A stretch of 64,000 nucleotides of DNA from Hyphomonas sp. (GTDB lineage: Bacteria > Pseudomonadota > Alphaproteobacteria > Caulobacterales > Hyphomonadaceae), in contig NZ_PNMA01000012.1 of assembly GCF_013823385.1 (NCBI RefSeq), forward strand, positions 33,987 to 97,986. Reading direction: 5' to 3'. The notes beneath the pieces were generated by a model that was not told where the DNA came from, ran no database searches, and saw only the letters and a list, made by a program, of their open reading frames with translations. This document shows, piece by piece, positions 43,304 through 51,891 of this stretch. A program made the translations under genes and the position numbers. Within the stretch, counting starts at the first letter, position 1; every line of letters begins with the position of its first letter.

Positions 43304-44020
43304 TCAAAAGAGGGTCGAAGCGCCGTTGGCGATATTGTGGGCGATGACCGGCAGAACGAGGCTGCCGGTGCGCTCGCGCAGCCAGAGCAGCAGGAAGGCC
43401 GGCAGGCCGGTCATCGCGAAGGTCATCAGGTCGAAATCGACCGCGCCGGCCTTGTAGCTCAACGCATGGGTGATACCGAAGAGAAGGCTGGTCAGCACGC
43501 CGCCATAGCCGATCGGCGCGCCCGCAATACTGATCCTCCCACGGAAGGCTTCATTGAGGGCGAGCAGCAGCGTGCCGCGATAGAAGAGTTCCTCGTCAAG
43601 CCCCGGCATGGTCCACTGGAAGGCGATGGTTTCCAGGCCGTCCGGCTTCCCGTCGGCGCTGCCGAGGGCGAGCCAGAAGAACAGCCCGGCGAGCGCAACG
43701 AACATCACCAGCGCCCCGCCCCAGCGCGGGCCCTGGTCCAGCGTCATGCCGCAACGCTTCCAGCCGAAGGCGGGCAGAGACATGACGATCAGCGTGCCGG
43801 CAATCGCCGCCAGCTTGCCGGCCCAGTTCCAGTCCGCGCCGGTGAACGGGTCTGGAATGGTCCAGAAGCCGCGCGTCAGCAGCGCCTGATAGGCAAGGTT
43901 GAGCGCTAGCGCAGCCGCGAGCCATTTCCAGCGGAAATCCCTGCGGAACACCACCGCCCCGAGGAGGCCAAACCCCGCCAGCAGCCCCGTCTCGATCAAT
44001 GTCCGGATCAGCTCATCCAT
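43304..44020 (-). CDS. CPBP family intramembrane metalloprotease
   Basis: A 238-residue polytopic protein. The CAAX-protease/Abi motifs are present: LDEELFYRGTLL (EExxxR variant), LLFGITHAL (FxxxH) and VIAHNIANGAS (HxxxN). These residues form the intramembrane active site in this family, which includes CAAX prenyl proteases and bacteriocin self-immunity proteins. The bacterial substrate is unknown. It is convergent with the envelope operon (six bases between stops) and separate from the downstream lipoprotein gene. Confidence 0.92.
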   Translation of the reverse strand: MDELIRTLIETGLLAGFGLLGAVVFRRDFRWKWLAAALALNLAYQALLTRGFWTIPDPFTGADWNWAGKLAAIAGTLIVMSLPAFGWKRCGMTLDQGPRWGGALVMFVALAGLFFWLALGSADGKPDGLETIAFQWTMPGLDEELFYRGTLLLALNEAFRGRISIAGAPIGYGGVLTSLLFGITHALSYKAGAVDFDLMTFAMTGLPAFLLLWLRERTGSLVLPVIAHNIANGASTLF

Positions 44021-45352: not shown

Positions 45353-46729
45353 CTATCCCGCCTTGCGCGCGCCGGCGGCGTCGGCTTCGGCGGCCTGGAG
45401 TTTCTCGGCGATGAGGAAGGCCAGTTCCAGCGCCTGTTCGCCATTCAGGCGGGGGTCGCAATGGGTGTGGTAGCGGCTGGAGAGGTCTTCTTCCGAGATC
45501 GCCTGCGCGCCGCCGATGCACTCGGTGACGTTCTGGCCGGTCATCTCGAAATGCACCCCGCCCGGATAGCAGCCCTCGGCCGACAGCACATCGATGAACT
45601 GGCGCACTTCGGAGAGAACGCGGTCCACAGGCCGTGTCTTGAAGCCGGTGCCGGTCTTCAGCGTGTTGCCGTGCATCGGATCGCACGACCAGACGACGGT
45701 GCGGCCGGATTTCTTCACCGCGCGGGCAAGCGGCGGCAGGCCGGCCTTCACGCCTTCCGAGCCGAAGCGCGAGATCAGCGTGATACGGCCAGGCTCGTCC
45801 TTCGGGTTCAGCGTGTCGATCAGGCGGAGCAGCTCGTCGGTTTCCATGCCGGGGCCGCATTTGATGCCGATCGGGTTTTTCACGCCCTTGCAGAAATTGA
45901 CATGCGCATGGTCCACCTGCCGTGTGCGGTGGCCGATCCACAGCATGTGGGCGGAGGTGTCATACCAATCGCCGCTGGTGGAATCGATGCGGGTCATCGC
46001 TTCCTCATAGCCCAGCAGCAGCGCCTCATGGCTGGTGTAGAACTCCACCTGCGACATCTGCGGGACGCTTTCGGCGTTAAGGCCAACCGCTTCCATGAAG
46101 CGCAGCGAGGCAGAGATCTGGTCAGCCAGCTTCTGGTAGCGTTCGCCCTGCGAGGAACGGTCCACGAAGCCGAGCATCCAGCGCTGGACATTGGCGAGGC
46201 TGGCATAGCCGCCCTGGCTGAAGGCGCGCAGCAGGTTCAGCGTGGCGGCCGATTGCGAATAGGCCTGGATCAGGCGCTCTGGGTCCGGAATACGGGACTC
46301 AGGGGTGAATTCCATGCCGTTGATATTGTCGCCCCGGTAGGAGGGCAGCGTCACGCCGTCGATCGTCTCGGTCGGCTCGGAGCGCGGCTTGCCGAACTGG
46401 CCGGCAATCCGGCCCACCTTCACCACCGGCTTGGCGGCGGCAAAGGTCAGCACCACAGCCATCTGCAGGATCACGCGGAACGTGTCGCGGATGTTGTCCG
46501 GGTGGAATTCCTTGAAGCTTTCGGCGCAGTCCCCGCCCTGCAGCAGGAACGCCTTGCCGGCGGCCACATCGGCCAGCCGCGTCTTCAGGCGCCGGGCCTC
46601 GCCGGCAAAAACCAGCGGCGGAAAGCTCCGGAGGCGGTTTTCAACAGCTGCCAGGGCGGCCGCGTCAGGATAGTCCTGCGGGATGTGCTTGGCAGGCAGG
46701 TTACGCCAGTCGGAAGGGTGCCAGGTCAT
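45353..46729 (-). CDS. 3-deoxy-D-arabino-heptulosonate-7-phosphate synthase, class II
   Basis: A 458-residue plant-type (AroA_II) DAHP synthase, the entry enzyme of the shikimate pathway. Start: ATG 46729, giving the usual [10 protein letters not shown] opening. Conserved pieces include [27 protein letters not shown], and the metal-site region GIKCGPGM and DPMHGNTL, then [15 protein letters not shown]. It is divergent from the TIR-ParA gene and is followed by a terminator. There is no leader-peptide attenuator that I could see. Confidence 0.96.
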
Positions 46730-46881
46730 TGCTCGGGTCTCACTCAGTTTCGCCGCGATAAAACATATGAGCGCCCATTGCTCAAGTTTCACCATAATTT
46801 CACTGCAAGAAGATGGCGGAATCGCGGGCCAGGCCGTTAAAAGGCCGGTTCATACAGAAGATTCACGAGCCGCGGGGCCAC

Positions 46882-48189
46882 ATGTCGCACGTGTATATCA
46901 GCCATTCGGGCAAAGACCCGGACGCCCTGCTCGCTTTGCATGAGGCGCTGCGGGCCGCTTCCGTAACGGTATTTTACCCCGGCGAGGACACCTCCCGCGC
47001 GGAAGCCGACGCCGCCATCGACCGCGCCTTCGCCATCATCGTGCTGGTGTCGGCCGAGGGCGTGCGCTCGCGCCGCGTGCGCCAGGATGTCGAGGCGGCC
47101 AAGGCGATGGGCCTGAAACTCATCCCCTACCAGGTCGACAAGGCGCGCCTCAACGGCTTCTTCAAGCAGGAAGTCCAGCCGCACCTGCGCCTCTCCTCCG
47201 CCATGCCGGATGGGCTCGACCAGCTCGTCGCGGAAACCCAGGAAGCCTACCGGAAGAAATGCCCGGTCATCGCGGTGATGAACCTCAAGGGCGGCGTGGG
47301 CAAAACTACCGTCACCGCGCAGGTGTTCGGCGCCTGGCAGGAGGCCTTTGGCGGCCGCGTGCTGCTGATCGACCTCGACCCGCAATATAACCTCACCCAG
47401 ACTTTCTATCCGATGGATCTGGCCGACGCCTCCTCCGCGCAGGACCGCTCTGTCATCTCCCTCTTCGAGCGCTCGCGCCTGCATGCGCGCGACGCTGCGT
47501 CTCCGGCGGAAAACTGGCTGGGCCTGACGATCCAGCCCTTCACGCCTGCTCCACGCGATCAGTTCGTACATCCCATTCTGGGGGTCGATGGGCCGCCGGG
47601 ACGGTTCGACATCATCTCCGGCCAGTTCGAGATTTCCAAATACGCCTTCTCCGGCGACCCGGACTCGCTCGCCGCCGTGAAACAGCATTTCCTGCGCTGC
47701 GTGGAGCATTACCGCAGCGAGTATGACCTCATCGTGTTCGACACCAACCCCAACGCCACCTTCCTGACGCGCTGCGCGCTGGAAGCGGCCGACCGGGTGA
47801 TCGCGCCGATGCATGCGGATATCTACTCGCTGCGCGGGGTGCGCCTCCTGGCGCAGGTGATCCGCAACCAGGTGGAAGAGAGCAAGCGCCCGCAGCTCGG
47901 CATCCTCTTCAACGCCGTGAACCGCAATGAGCAGTCAACCTTCGAGGCCGATGCGCGCAATGGCGTGTTCGACGAGATTGCCGGCTTCCCGCTGTCAAAG
48001 GCGCTGCTCACCGCCGCCCTGCCCCGCTCAGCGCATTTCGCCGTCAAGGCCCCGCAGGAAGGCCAGCCCGCCTGGCGCCAGCTGGTGATCCATGCCGGGC
48101 GCGGCGGCGGCCTCAAGCCCATCCGCGAAAGCCTGAAACAGGTCGCGCTGGAAATCCGTGGACTGAATGAAGGGAAGACGGGGCACTGA
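46882..48189 (+). CDS. TIR domain fused to ParA/MinD-type ATPase
   Basis: A 435-residue protein from ATG 46882 (a 23-residue longer start at 46813 is possible). Residues 1-125 are a TIR domain: MSHVYISHSGKDPDALLAL, FYPGEDTS, IIVLVSAEGVRSRR and KLIPYQVD. The usual catalytic glutamate of NAD-cleaving TIRs appears to be Asp69. Residues 128-435 are a ParA-like ATPase with deviant Walker A KGGVGKTT (136-143), LLIDLDPQYN (A' motif), and DLIVFDTNPNATFLTRCALEAAD. No parB or parS-like partner is adjacent. Signalling or defence are possibilities; chromosomal or cell-polarity functions are others. The role is unproven. Confidence 0.85.
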   Translation: MSHVYISHSGKDPDALLALHEALRAASVTVFYPGEDTSRAEADAAIDRAFAIIVLVSAEGVRSRRVRQDVEAAKAMGLKLIPYQVDKARLNGFFKQEVQPHLRLSSAMPDGLDQLVAETQEAYRKKCPVIAVMNLKGGVGKTTVTAQVFGAWQEAFGGRVLLIDLDPQYNLTQTFYPMDLADASSAQDRSVISLFERSRLHARDAASPAENWLGLTIQPFTPAPRDQFVHPILGVDGPPGRFDIISGQFEISKYAFSGDPDSLAAVKQHFLRCVEHYRSEYDLIVFDTNPNATFLTRCALEAADRVIAPMHADIYSLRGVRLLAQVIRNQVEESKRPQLGILFNAVNRNEQSTFEADARNGVFDEIAGFPLSKALLTAALPRSAHFAVKAPQEGQPAWRQLVIHAGRGGGLKPIRESLKQVALEIRGLNEGKTGH

Positions 48190-48352: not shown

Positions 48353-49738
48353 CTAAACGCCCTCAGGCACCCATTTTGTCCGCATCGTGACGAGTTCCTC
48401 GGCCGCAGACGGATGGAGCGCGCAGGTGCGGTCAAAGTCCTGTTTCGTCGCGCCCATCTTCACGGCAATCGCGGCGGTCTGGATCATCTCGGCGGCGTCA
48501 TCGCCCACCACATGCACGCCGAGCACGCGCTGGTCGGACGCGCGCACGACGAGCTTCATGAAGGTGCGCGTCTGGTCGCCGTTCAGCATGTTCTTCATCG
48601 GGCGGAACTTCGTCTTGTAGATGTCGATCTCGCCATAGGTCTTGCGCGCTTCTGCTTCAGAGATGCCCACGGTGCCGACTTCGGGCTGGGTAAACACCGC
48701 CGTCGGAATATTCTCGTGATCCATTTTCCAGGGCTTGCCGCCAAATTCGGTATCGGCAAAGGCATGGCCTTCGCGGATCGCCACAGGCGTCAGCGCCACG
48801 CGGCCGGTCACATCCCCAACCGCCCAGATGTTTTCAGCGCTGGTGCGCGACCATTCATCAACGATCACATCGCCATTCTCGGCCAGCTTCACGCCCGCCT
48901 TGTCACAGCCGAGACCTTCCGTATTCGCCCGGCGGCCCACGGCCATCAGCACAACATCGGTCTCGATCTCGGTGCCGCTGCTCAGCGTCACCTTGAGGCC
49001 GGCGTCAGTCTTCTCGATGGATTTGAACACGCATTTCGTCACCACGCGCACGCCATCTTCTTTCAGGCCCTCATGCACGGCCAGGCGGATCTCGTCGTCA
49101 AAGCCGCGCAGCACGGTGTCGCCGCGATAGACTAGGCAAACTTCCGTACCGAGCCCGGCAAACACATGCGCAAACTCGACCGCGATATATCCCCCGCCAG
49201 CAATCACCATGCGTTTTGGAAGCTCGGTCAATTCGAACACGCCATTGGAATCGATCACATGCTCGACCCCGGGAAGTTCCTCCGCAGACGGAAGCCAGGG
49301 CCGCCCGCCCACAGCAATCAAGATTTTCTTCGCGGTAATCGTCTTGCCGGAACTCTTCAGGCGCAGCGTATGCTGGTCCACGAACTCAGCGCGGTCATCA
49401 AACACATCGACCCCGGCATTCTTCAGGTTGCGGTCATAGATCGCCGACAGCCGGTCCACCTCGGCATGCAGGCCCACCATGAATTTCCCGTGATCATAGG
49501 ACACCTCGCCCACAGACCATCCGTATCCGGCAGAAAGTTCGATGTCCTTTCCGTACTTGCTGGAATACACCATGAACTTCTTCGGCACGCAGCCGCGCAC
49601 CACGCAGGTGCCCCCCATCCGGTATTCCTCGGCAAGGCCCACCTTCGCGCCCGCCTGCGCCGCAATCCTTCCGGCGCGCACGCCCCCCGATCCGCCGCCG
49701 ATCACGAACAGGTCATAGTCATAGGCGGCATCGGTCAT
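48353..49738 (-). CDS. gor: Glutathione-disulfide reductase
   Basis: A 461-residue FAD/NADPH disulfide reductase. The N-terminal GGGSGGVRAGRIAAQ dinucleotide fold is followed by the redox-active pair in GGTCVVRGCVPKK. The NADPH fold IAGGGYIAVEFA, the FAD-binding WAVGDVTGRVALTP and the C-terminal interface motif CALHPSAAEELVTMR (HP, the catalytic base) are complete. It keeps glutathione reduced. It is flanked by a repeat on one side and rpiA on the other, about 55 bases away. Confidence 0.95.
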   Translation of the reverse strand: MTDAAYDYDLFVIGGGSGGVRAGRIAAQAGAKVGLAEEYRMGGTCVVRGCVPKKFMVYSSKYGKDIELSAGYGWSVGEVSYDHGKFMVGLHAEVDRLSAIYDRNLKNAGVDVFDDRAEFVDQHTLRLKSSGKTITAKKILIAVGGRPWLPSAEELPGVEHVIDSNGVFELTELPKRMVIAGGGYIAVEFAHVFAGLGTEVCLVYRGDTVLRGFDDEIRLAVHEGLKEDGVRVVTKCVFKSIEKTDAGLKVTLSSGTEIETDVVLMAVGRRANTEGLGCDKAGVKLAENGDVIVDEWSRTSAENIWAVGDVTGRVALTPVAIREGHAFADTEFGGKPWKMDHENIPTAVFTQPEVGTVGISEAEARKTYGEIDIYKTKFRPMKNMLNGDQTRTFMKLVVRASDQRVLGVHVVGDDAAEMIQTAAIAVKMGATKQDFDRTCALHPSAAEELVTMRTKWVPEGV

Positions 49739-49793: not shown

Positions 49794-50495
49794 TCAGTAT
49801 TCAATGATATGGGCGCCATTTTCCTCGCCGATGATCACCGTGCGGGCGATGCCGATGAAGAGGCCATGCTCCACAACGCCCGGCACGCCGGAGAGATAGG
49901 CGCCGGTCTTGGCGGGGTCTGGAATGCGCCCGCAATGGCAGTCGAAGATGTAGTTGCCGCCATCGGTGACCAGCAGGTCATGGCTGCCGGGCAGCTTGCG
50001 CAGCTCGATGCGCGGGCGTTCGACCCCGGACGCCACCAGCGCGTCATGCACCTTCTTGGCCGTGATCGTATAGCCGAAGGGCGTCACTTCCACAGCCAGC
50101 GGAAACGCCCCGATATGGGGCACCTCCTTGGAACTGTCGGCGATCACAACCATGTGATCCGACGCGTTGGCGATGATCTTCTCGCGCAGCAGCGCCGCCC
50201 CGCCGCCCTTGATCAGCACGCCGCCGGGGCCGACTTCATCGGCGCCGTCCACGGTGAGGTGAATGCGGTCCACCTGCTCGAACGGGATCAGCGGAATGCC
50301 GAGGCTGCGGGCGAGGTCGCGTGTCTGAAGGCTGGTCTCGATACAGCGCACGATCAGCCCGTCGGCGATCTCGTCGGCCAGCATCTCGATGAAAAACTTC
50401 GCCGTGGATCCGGTGCCGAGGCCAATGGTCATGCCCTCCTCAACAAAGTCCATCGCGGCGGCGGCGGCGTTCTGTTTTTCGGTCTCGCTAGCCAT
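49794..50495 (-). CDS. rpiA: Ribose-5-phosphate isomerase A
   Basis: A 233-residue enzyme from ATG 50495; a longer open frame to 50636 would overlap glmU and is unlikely. Motifs GLGTGSTAKFFIEML, LTVDGADEV and KGGGAALLREKI are those of RpiA, with the catalytic aspartates and lysine. It interconverts ribose-5-phosphate and ribulose-5-phosphate in the pentose phosphate pathway. The length is typical. It lies 10 bases after glmU on the same strand, suggesting co-transcription. Confidence 0.96.
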   Translation of the reverse strand: MASETEKQNAAAAAMDFVEEGMTIGLGTGSTAKFFIEMLADEIADGLIVRCIETSLQTRDLARSLGIPLIPFEQVDRIHLTVDGADEVGPGGVLIKGGGAALLREKIIANASDHMVVIADSSKEVPHIGAFPLAVEVTPFGYTITAKKVHDALVASGVERPRIELRKLPGSHDLLVTDGGNYIFDCHCGRIPDPAKTGAYLSGVPGVVEHGLFIGIARTVIIGEENGAHIIEY

Positions 50496-50505
50496 GTCGG
50501 GCCTA

Positions 50506-51891
50506 TCAGCCTTTCTTGTCCTTGCCTGCGCTGCGGGCGGCCTTTTCGGCGGCTTTCTTCGCCCGGTAATCCTTCGCCCAGCCCTCGCGGGTGACCTGCT
50601 GCCCCCGGCCCACGGCAAGCGCATCATCCGGCACATCCTTGGTGATCACGCTGCCGGAGCCGACATAGGCGCCATTGCCAACGCGCACCGGCGCCACGAG
50701 GGAAGAGTTGGAGCCGACAAACGCCCCCTCGCCCACATCGGTCTGGTGTTTGAGATAGCCGTCATAATTGCAGAAGATCGTGCCCGCGCCGATATTGGCG
50801 CCCGCGCCGATGGCCCCGTCGCCCAGATAAGCCAGGTGATTGGCCTTGGCGCCCTCGCCCATGGCGGTGTTCTTGGTCTCGACGAAATTGCCGATATGGA
50901 CGCCTCTGCCCAGCACGGTGCCCGGCCGCAGGCGCGCATAGGGGCCAACGCTGCAACCTTCGCCCACAACGGCGCCTTCCAGATGGCTGAACGCGCGGAT
51001 CTGCGCCCCGCCCGCCACCTTCACGCCGGGGCCGAACACCACATTCGGCTCGATCACGGCATCCGGGCCGATCTCGGTGTCATGAGAGACAAACACGGTT
51101 TCCGGCGCGACCATCGTGACACCCGCCTCCATCAGCGCGCGGCGGCGCCTGCGCTGGAAGATCGCTTCAGCCTCGGCGAGGTCTGCCTTGGAATCGCAAC
51201 CGATCAGATCATCCTCGCCCGAGACCGCCACAGCGCAGCGGATGCCTTCAGCGCGCGCAAGGCCGACAAGATCGGTCAGGTAATACTCGCCCTTGGCATT
51301 GGCGTTGGTGACGTTCGCCAGCAGGCGGAACATGTCCTTGGCGCGGCCTGCCATGACGCCTGAGTTGCAGAGGCGCACCCTGAGCTGGTGCGGCGTGGCT
51401 TCCCGCGCTTCCACGATGGCCTCCAGGCTGCCATCCTCCGACGTGATCAGGCGGCCATAGAGGCCGGGCTCCTCGGCCTCAAAGCCGAGCACTCCGAGAC
51501 CTGTAGTGTCCGAAAGTGTCCCGAAAAGGTCCTCGATTGTCCCTGCCGGCACCAGCGGACTGTCGCCATAGAGCACGGCAAGATCGCCCTCGAAGCCTGC
51601 CAGCGCCCCTTCCGCGCAACGCACGGCATGGCCGGTTCCCTGCGGCGGGTCCTGATAGGCAATGGCAATATCCGGATGGTGCTGGGTGAGATGCGCGATC
51701 AGCACGTCCTGCGACGGATGCACCACCGCCACGATCTTCTCTGCGCCGACTTTCCGCGCCAGTTCGATCGACCAGTCCACCATCGGGCGCCCGGCCACGG
51801 CATGCATCACCTTGGGCAGGGGCGACTTCATCCGGGTTCCCTTGCCGGCAGCAAGGATGACGGCGGCGCGCTGTTTCCGGCTGTCAGTCAA
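50506..51891 (-). CDS. glmU: Bifunctional GlmU: UDP-GlcNAc pyrophosphorylase / GlcN-1-P acetyltransferase
   Basis: A 461-residue enzyme, near the usual 456. The N-terminal uridyltransferase domain opens VILAAGKGTRMKSPLPKVMH with the pyrophosphorylase motif, and LYGDSPL. The left-handed beta-helix domain shows hexapeptide repeats such as IGPDAVIEPNVVFGPGVKVAGG, then GEGAKANHLAYLGDGAIGAGANIGAG and a C-terminal lysine-rich tail. It makes UDP-GlcNAc for peptidoglycan and LPS. The gene is divergent from gph. Confidence 0.97.
   Translation of the reverse strand: MTDSRKQRAAVILAAGKGTRMKSPLPKVMHAVAGRPMVDWSIELARKVGAEKIVAVVHPSQDVLIAHLTQHHPDIAIAYQDPPQGTGHAVRCAEGALAGFEGDLAVLYGDSPLVPAGTIEDLFGTLSDTTGLGVLGFEAEEPGLYGRLITSEDGSLEAIVEAREATPHQLRVRLCNSGVMAGRAKDMFRLLANVTNANAKGEYYLTDLVGLARAEGIRCAVAVSGEDDLIGCDSKADLAEAEAIFQRRRRRALMEAGVTMVAPETVFVSHDTEIGPDAVIEPNVVFGPGVKVAGGAQIRAFSHLEGAVVGEGCSVGPYARLRPGTVLGRGVHIGNFVETKNTAMGEGAKANHLAYLGDGAIGAGANIGAGTIFCNYDGYLKHQTDVGEGAFVGSNSSLVAPVRVGNGAYVGSGSVITKDVPDDALAVGRGQQVTREGWAKDYRAKKAAEKAARSAGKDKKG

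Follow-up and report, generated by a model that had tools for sequence, protein, structure and literature searches.

Bacterial TIR domains have mostly been studied as immune NADases. The protein considered here, TIR-ParA (435 residues), is encoded at 46882..48189 on the forward strand of the window, i.e., the whole 64,000-nucleotide stretch of Hyphomonas DNA that was analysed. Residues 1–120 share the TIR fold with the NADases AbTir, BtTir, PdTIR, SARM1 and ThsB; unlike these, the protein shows Asp69 where they have the catalytic Glu, lacks the Trp of the WxxxE motif and carries an attached ParA ATPase. The deviant Walker A, Walker A′ and Walker B motifs of this ATPase are shared with ParA/Soj proteins and with single-domain ParAs of (pro)viral contigs, of which those at L200–L203 contain, close to where GQFEISKY would lie, a motif of PGDF type (for example PGDFRMIKY). 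No TIR precedes the ParA at the nine of 11 (pro)viral loci whose start can be read, L203 and L206 being cut at the contig end. In contrast to ParA/Soj partition systems, no adjacent ParB gene was found beside the Hyphomonas gene. Another comparison is offered by CpaE/TadZ, in which a receiver-like N-terminal domain, flavodoxin-like and non-catalytic, precedes a ParA-type ATPase that helps to place pilus machinery at the cell pole; the Hyphomonas protein has a TIR in that position, and no pilus genes were recognised among the window neighbours scanned.

The relatives most similar in build are the TIR-ParA proteins of Hirschia type and those found away from the conserved locus in a second family, f3. 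They have the same architecture and length as the Hyphomonas protein and differ in mostly retaining Glu (22 of 23 distant copies), in being accompanied by a small partner gene and in their mostly low GC content. In the excerpted text of PMC7159879, MinD/ParA-like and TIR domains are placed in other conflict systems; that of PMC13174449 concerns a TIR-like NADase, Swarozyc. A paper on Hyphomonas neptunium reports a mipZ homologue, and the term "TIR" occurs 0 times in its main text (PMC7200025). Among the literature matches listed, which included few subscription papers, none describes a TIR-ParA fusion family, and in the literature searched, again mostly without subscription papers, no paper brings Hyphomonas and TIR domains together. 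The Hyphomonas protein is a branch of a TIR-ParA family that seems to be undescribed. Its TIR domain, which selection maintains within a core gene, lacks the catalytic residue and sits on an ATPase of spatial-organiser type, and it would offer a direct test case for the passage from NADase enzyme to structural part.

Domain architecture and conservation

The AlphaFold model of the whole protein has a pLDDT of 91.4, and that of residues 1–120 alone (46882..47241, forward strand) a pLDDT of 94.8. This region matches the TIR_2 profile, and a PDB fold search with the TIR part alone returned mostly TIR structures. It should be noted that ParA structures filled the list of matches in the whole-protein search, so that the TIR relationship first appeared with the TIR-only query. 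The sequence-only reading had recognised a TIR domain followed by a ParA-type ATPase, and had named a model without a TIR fold at the N-terminus as one outcome that would overturn it; both the model and the fold search show a TIR fold.

The second half of that reading also holds. Residues 128–435 (47263..48186, forward strand) match AAA_31/CbiA, and the best folds among the matches listed are Soj and plasmid ParA. The motifs of a ParA/MinD-type deviant Walker A ATPase are intact, and all 176 core members examined share the signature residues: K136 and K141 in the deviant Walker A (KGGVGKTT, residues 136–143, 47287..47310), D164 and D166 in Walker A′ (DLDPQ, residues 164–168, 47371..47385), and D287 in Walker B (IVFDTNPN, residues 284–291, 47731..47754), all on the forward strand.

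TIR-ParA is not a MipZ at full profile strength, as it scores 33.6 bits against PF09140 compared with 369.7 bits for a separate mipZ on contig C16 of the same genome; such a separate mipZ was found in 102 of 105 family genomes. As to ParABS, no ParB-type gene adjoins TIR-ParA. The absence of a visible ParB partner, remarked on from the sequence, thus agrees with the search of the genome: the match above cut-off lies on contig C2 and two weaker matches are on C10 and C59, whereas C12 holds the window.

The TIR domain is under purifying selection, with a median pairwise dN/dS among 33 Hyphomonas sequences of 0.235, compared with 0.170 for the ParA part. The TIR part is the less conserved of the two (mean majority identity 0.62 vs 0.77). 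Identity of at least 95% is reached at 16 of its 120 positions, which include D14, L16, L17, H20, E21 and R24 of helix A and, in or near loops that, judged from secondary structure, surround the position of the TIR pocket, H8, D12, S57, R62, D86 and R89. Conservation of the pocket-loop set is 0.69 without the BB loop, compared with 0.62 for the rest of the domain (one-sided p 0.10), and 0.63 with it. Pocket-loop conservation was rejected as proof of ligand binding, this difference not being significant.

The catalytic position

Profile alignment to solved TIR NADases places Asp69 (codon 47086..47088, forward strand) at the Glu of WxxxE, the motif of helix C by which TIR NADases are recognised; the Trp is likewise missing. 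The suggestion, made from the sequence, that Asp69 holds the position of the usual catalytic glutamate is thereby corroborated, and family column counts agree with it. Asp is present in all 38 Hyphomonas copies that could be read, of which three have the Trp, and is not peculiar to one genome. When 209 family proteins are binned by identity to the query, those at least 70% identical have 71 Asp and one Tyr at this column (n = 72; Glu in none), those at 50–70% have 50 Asp, 57 Gln, five Glu and two Leu (n = 114), and those below 50% have 22 Glu and one Ala (n = 23). The Trp follows a similar course, being present in 4 of 72, 0 of 114 and 17 of 23, respectively. Gln, which half of the 114 intermediate relatives carry, has no carboxylate. 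The most divergent syntenic copy in the Hyphomonadaceae (G106, L048) retains Glu. From these alignments we infer that the NADase activity of the Hyphomonas protein has probably been lost.

A conserved chromosomal locus in the Hyphomonadaceae

The divergent neighbour of TIR-ParA, and its constant syntenic partner in the core form, is a class II DAHP synthase gene (45353..46795, reverse strand; TIGR01358). The convergent neighbour is the glutathione-disulfide reductase gene gor (48353..49738, reverse strand; TIGR01424), and the syntenic block includes the ribose-5-phosphate isomerase A gene rpiA (49794..50636, reverse strand; NF001924). The survey of Hyphomonadaceae gene neighbourhoods that had been proposed as a check revealed a fixed locus: in 39 of 40 loci, all fetched for holding TIR-ParA, a divergent DAHP synthase gene adjoins it, the exception being the distant Hirschia locus L049. 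Many of these loci continue with gor, rpiA and a gene that we take, from hexapeptide and NTP-transferase matches, to be glmU-like.

Of the 42 Hyphomonas genomes surveyed, 41 hold full-length TIR-ParA; the remaining genome is 83% complete, and its assembly also lacks the neighbouring DAHP synthase. Across the family, 67 of 105 genomes match at 1e-20, comprising 64 full-length copies, two fragments (G077, G083) and one distant Hirschia copy (G093). Where the gene is absent, DAHP synthase and gor are separated by 116–256 bp in 9 of 10 genomes of g15 (partly Henriciella) and in 6 of 6 of g19. Read on a five-gene tree, TIR-ParA is most simply ancestral to the Hyphomonas/Henriciella group and was then lost several times, in G061, G067, G073 and G087 and in one clade of seven. 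It is core in Hyphomonas and dispensable across the wider family; since several lineages lack it, it is not essential family-wide.

The GC content of the gene exceeds that of its surroundings by 0.005 on average in the family core (n = 38, −0.026 to 0.035). Neither a patchy or mobile distribution nor a defence-island context was found, despite the scattered losses in the wider family. That no defence island is visible was already evident from the sequence, and the fixed housekeeping locus and neighbourhood-like GC bear this out; the accompanying proposal of a new type of defence effector finds no support for the Hyphomonas gene, which is core, sits at that locus and lacks the catalytic Glu.

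Upstream sequences contain GANTC at 41 of 54 loci, as a raw count without shuffle control, and a CtrA-type TTAA-N7-TTAA at 0 of 54. Between the divergent genes lies a conserved element, CAAGTTTCACCATAATTTCAC (window 46783–46803; CAAGTTTTACCACA in relatives). The CAAGTTTTACCACA-type element persists ahead of the DAHP synthase gene even in several genomes lacking TIR-ParA, and it is assigned to DAHP synthase for that reason. A cell-cycle promoter reading was dropped.

Relatives in a second family and beyond

In an order-wide survey with the broader profile A4, 73 of 299 genomes match, 30 of them in family f3 and one (G103) with ParA only. The class-wide figure, 2 of 385 genomes and both Hyphomonas, is a lower bound, as it was obtained with the narrow, Hyphomonadaceae-only alignment A1. 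Phylum-wide, A4 gave full-length fusions in three Hyphomonas genomes and ParA-only matches in three of the other 395. A contig collection scanned with a Hirschia-type alignment yielded nine loci, one a full TIR-ParA (a Myxococcales MAG) and the rest matching the ParA region. No record with 80% cover of TIR-ParA was found among 72,556 plasmids or 50,697 phages, and in viral contigs the matches listed (80 of 378 loci) all begin at residue 101 or later.

The 32 f3 loci fetched represent 28 of the 30 genomes. Of these loci, 26, forming one clade and here called the f3 core, adjoin DAHP synthase; six do not. At L186 the block reads MATE, DAHP synthase, TIR-ParA, partner gene, single-domain ParA, gor, rpiA and the glmU-like gene. 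Because f3 shows the same block, the association with DAHP synthase probably predates the split between the two families. In the ParA tree, the root of which is uncertain, the two core groups are not sisters. The ParA parts of TIR-ParA proteins form one group (support 94) that also includes a single plain ParA; non-syntenic L159–L161 and L190 fall with the Hyphomonadaceae (support 95), L179 with f3 (support 100). The f3 core has Glu in 21 of 26 copies (otherwise three Asp, one Ala and one His), and many of its members have an altered first loop (YLAFE...), so that, judged by their residues, they may or may not be catalytic. Their GC difference averages +0.015 (n = 25, −0.021 to 0.053).

Copies outside the DAHP synthase locus are those of Hirschia baltica (L049), the Myxococcales MAG (L135) and f3 loci L159, L160, L161, L174, L179 and L190. 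Their TIR_2 matches are stronger in the four scanned (L049, L159, L160, L174; E 2e-18 to 4e-20). Their GC content lies below that of the surroundings by 0.068 on average (−0.068; n = 7, −0.096 to −0.019, with L190 left out), which differs from the core at a Mann-Whitney p of 7e-9 when relatedness is ignored; L135 falls inside the core range. L174 and L159 were chosen for the first neighbour scan after their ORFs had been viewed, and L160, L161, L179 and L049 were scanned later. The vicinity of L174 contains an integrase, AbiTii and a second TIR protein, that of L159 a pPIWI-associating nuclease, the PADLOC matches being AbiTii and Aga_Nuclease-type. L160 and L161 both adjoin a DXP synthase gene, L049 has metabolic and transporter neighbours, and the vicinity of L179 contains a PLP enzyme and a PIF1-like helicase, the latter partly matched by PADLOC models. 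Defence-type genes were thus found near two of the six loci scanned and housekeeping neighbours at the other four, L135 and L190 being outside the scan. Defence islands were accordingly rejected as the general context of these copies, and an immune origin is not established, given the four housekeeping contexts. The evidence from context is mixed, and the distant Glu-bearing relatives may or may not have a defence role. As a separate observation, the DXP synthase neighbour common to L160 and L161, which come from different genomes, may mark a second stable site.

The small partner gene

Directly after TIR-ParA, often overlapping its stop codon, the relatives outside the Hyphomonadaceae core have a gene of about 131–148 codons. 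With a cut-off of 1e-3, its profile detects the gene at 33 of 35 such loci (26 of the f3 core, six f3 non-syntenic, L049, L135 and the plain ParA of L189), of which 12 supplied the profile and 21 of the other 23 match. The misses are L169, with a 79-residue ORF (E 0.043), and L190, with a 147-residue ORF in that place and no profile match; the called ORF that matches is longer at L170, L172 and L178. No Pfam family was above cut-off in six partners scanned, none of the PADLOC models searched matches the partner over its length, and the Hirschia and Myxococcales partners share 31% identity over 95 residues.

The Hyphomonas core form has the architecture of this two-gene family and lacks its adjacent gene of about 140 codons. 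The partner profile matches below 1e-3 at 0 of 39 Hyphomonadaceae core loci, and 42 Hyphomonas genomes gave one weak match (E 7e-4). In the 105 family genomes, strong matches stand only beside the Hirschia gene and beside the plain ParA in G103, with weak ones in G020 and G094 and, as a second match, in G093. Small ORFs lie downstream of TIR-ParA at 10 of the 39 loci, none matching the profile below 1e-3; by eye, most look like antisense shadows of gor.

In G103 a partner-type gene follows a plain ParA without TIR (L189:6397-7865), which suggests that the partner could be a component of the ParA module and not of the TIR. The Hirschia locus has a second partner-like gene (L049:1892-2293; profile E 8.4e-7), with no second ParA seen in the part of the locus that was read. 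The Glu-bearing two-gene module, with a partner outside the Pfam families scanned, is a second and separate lead as a candidate for phage defence.

Functional interpretation

The reading we favour, to which we give about an even chance, is that the Hyphomonas protein is a core, vertically inherited ParA ATPase that, with a TIR domain lacking Glu, would serve as an ATP-switched scaffold or positioning protein, probably derived from a Glu-bearing two-gene TIR-ParA. The proposed mechanism builds on the ParA ATPase cycle and on TIR self-association. Binding of ATP would close the ParA sandwich dimer and bring two TIR domains together; the pair would act as a surface on which a cargo or receptor binds or assembles rather than as a NADase, and ATP hydrolysis would release it. 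Such pairing appears likeliest because the ParA motifs are intact, the TIR domain is under purifying selection and Glu is missing. A cell-organising role is, as a prediction from sequence, likely, and on this evidence the protein does not appear to be a defence NADase; of the alternatives first offered, polarity or signalling versus defence, the former is the better half and a possible role. That the Glu-bearing two-gene form came first is an argument from parsimony, made with an uncertain tree root and core groups that are not sisters. Against Glu loss as a rule of core copies stand G106/L048 and the f3 core, most of which keep it.

It is clearly less probable that the TIR pocket binds NAD+, ADP-ribose or a related ligand uncut and that the ligand sets the ParA ATPase cycle. 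The six nearly invariant residues in or near the pocket loops would suit a ligand, just as those of helix A would suit an interface. Taken together, the pocket loops show no significant excess of conservation over the remainder of the domain, and the interface is ranked above the ligand on that account, without strong separation.

Rather unlikely, in our opinion, is a defence effector with an altered mechanism, in which Asp69 serves as the catalytic acid or another effector is recruited after infection. The mostly foreign-like GC of the Glu-bearing non-syntenic relatives, the defence-type genes near two of six of them and the Glu kept by five of 114 intermediate relatives speak for it. Gln at the same position in 57 of those 114 argues against an acid, and the core status, fixed locus, neighbourhood-like GC and loss of the partner gene argue against defence more generally. 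No PADLOC family matches below 1e-3 save around Walker A (E 1.5e-4). Membership in PADLOC PDC-M28B, a name not found in the literature searched, was rejected, as its weak matches lie around Walker A (residues 121–166 of the Hyphomonas protein; from 101 in L049).

Slightly less credible still is a TIR domain that is an evolutionary remnant beside a working ParA part: the TIR is indeed the more variable half, but its dN/dS, its 16 nearly invariant positions and a fusion that is full length in 41 of 41 Hyphomonas matches do not fit disuse. Least probable is an ordinary chromosome-partition or division-site ParA/MipZ with an incidental N-terminal domain, for which Soj and plasmid ParA as nearest folds speak and against which stand the separate mipZ, the strong ParB match on another contig and the selection on the TIR domain.

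The favoured positioning protein may also have a longer history, which we offer as a speculation with a low chance of being right, a chance that the housekeeping contexts of four non-syntenic loci reduce somewhat. An immune switch, in which ParA dimerising on foreign or partitioning DNA would unite TIR NADases, might have been captured at the DAHP synthase locus of the Hyphomonadaceae, disarmed by replacement of Glu with Asp or Gln and by loss of the partner, and become a core cell organiser. If true, this would be a bacterial domestication of an immune effector.

Other observations at and around the locus

In outgroups, a ParA-like ORF between DAHP synthase and gor had raised the idea that TIR-ParA replaces MipZ. 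This was rejected, as mipZ lies elsewhere in 102 of 105 genomes and the ORF, which runs on the opposite strand, encodes not MipZ but another, single-domain ParA. Such single-domain ParAs (about 283 residues) lie near DAHP synthase in outgroup genera, at L086, L087, L088, L095, L096, L099, L102 and L104, on the strand opposite to that of TIR-ParA, and in L186 both genes coexist. In the f3 genus g296, an ORF of about 440 codons lies between DAHP synthase and TIR-ParA (L168:8207-9550, L173:4727-6037, L177:8664-9962). Within the window, 43304–44020 encodes a CPBP-family intramembrane protease, a BDIM_20840 equivalog (NF047635). Outside it, the genome encodes a second TIR-type protein of 311 residues (L002:1489-2424; G000:C1:244503-245435), present in 42 of 42 Hyphomonas and 72 of 105 family genomes; its copy in this genome has WVRAAA at the place of WxxxE, where Glu is seemingly lost as well.
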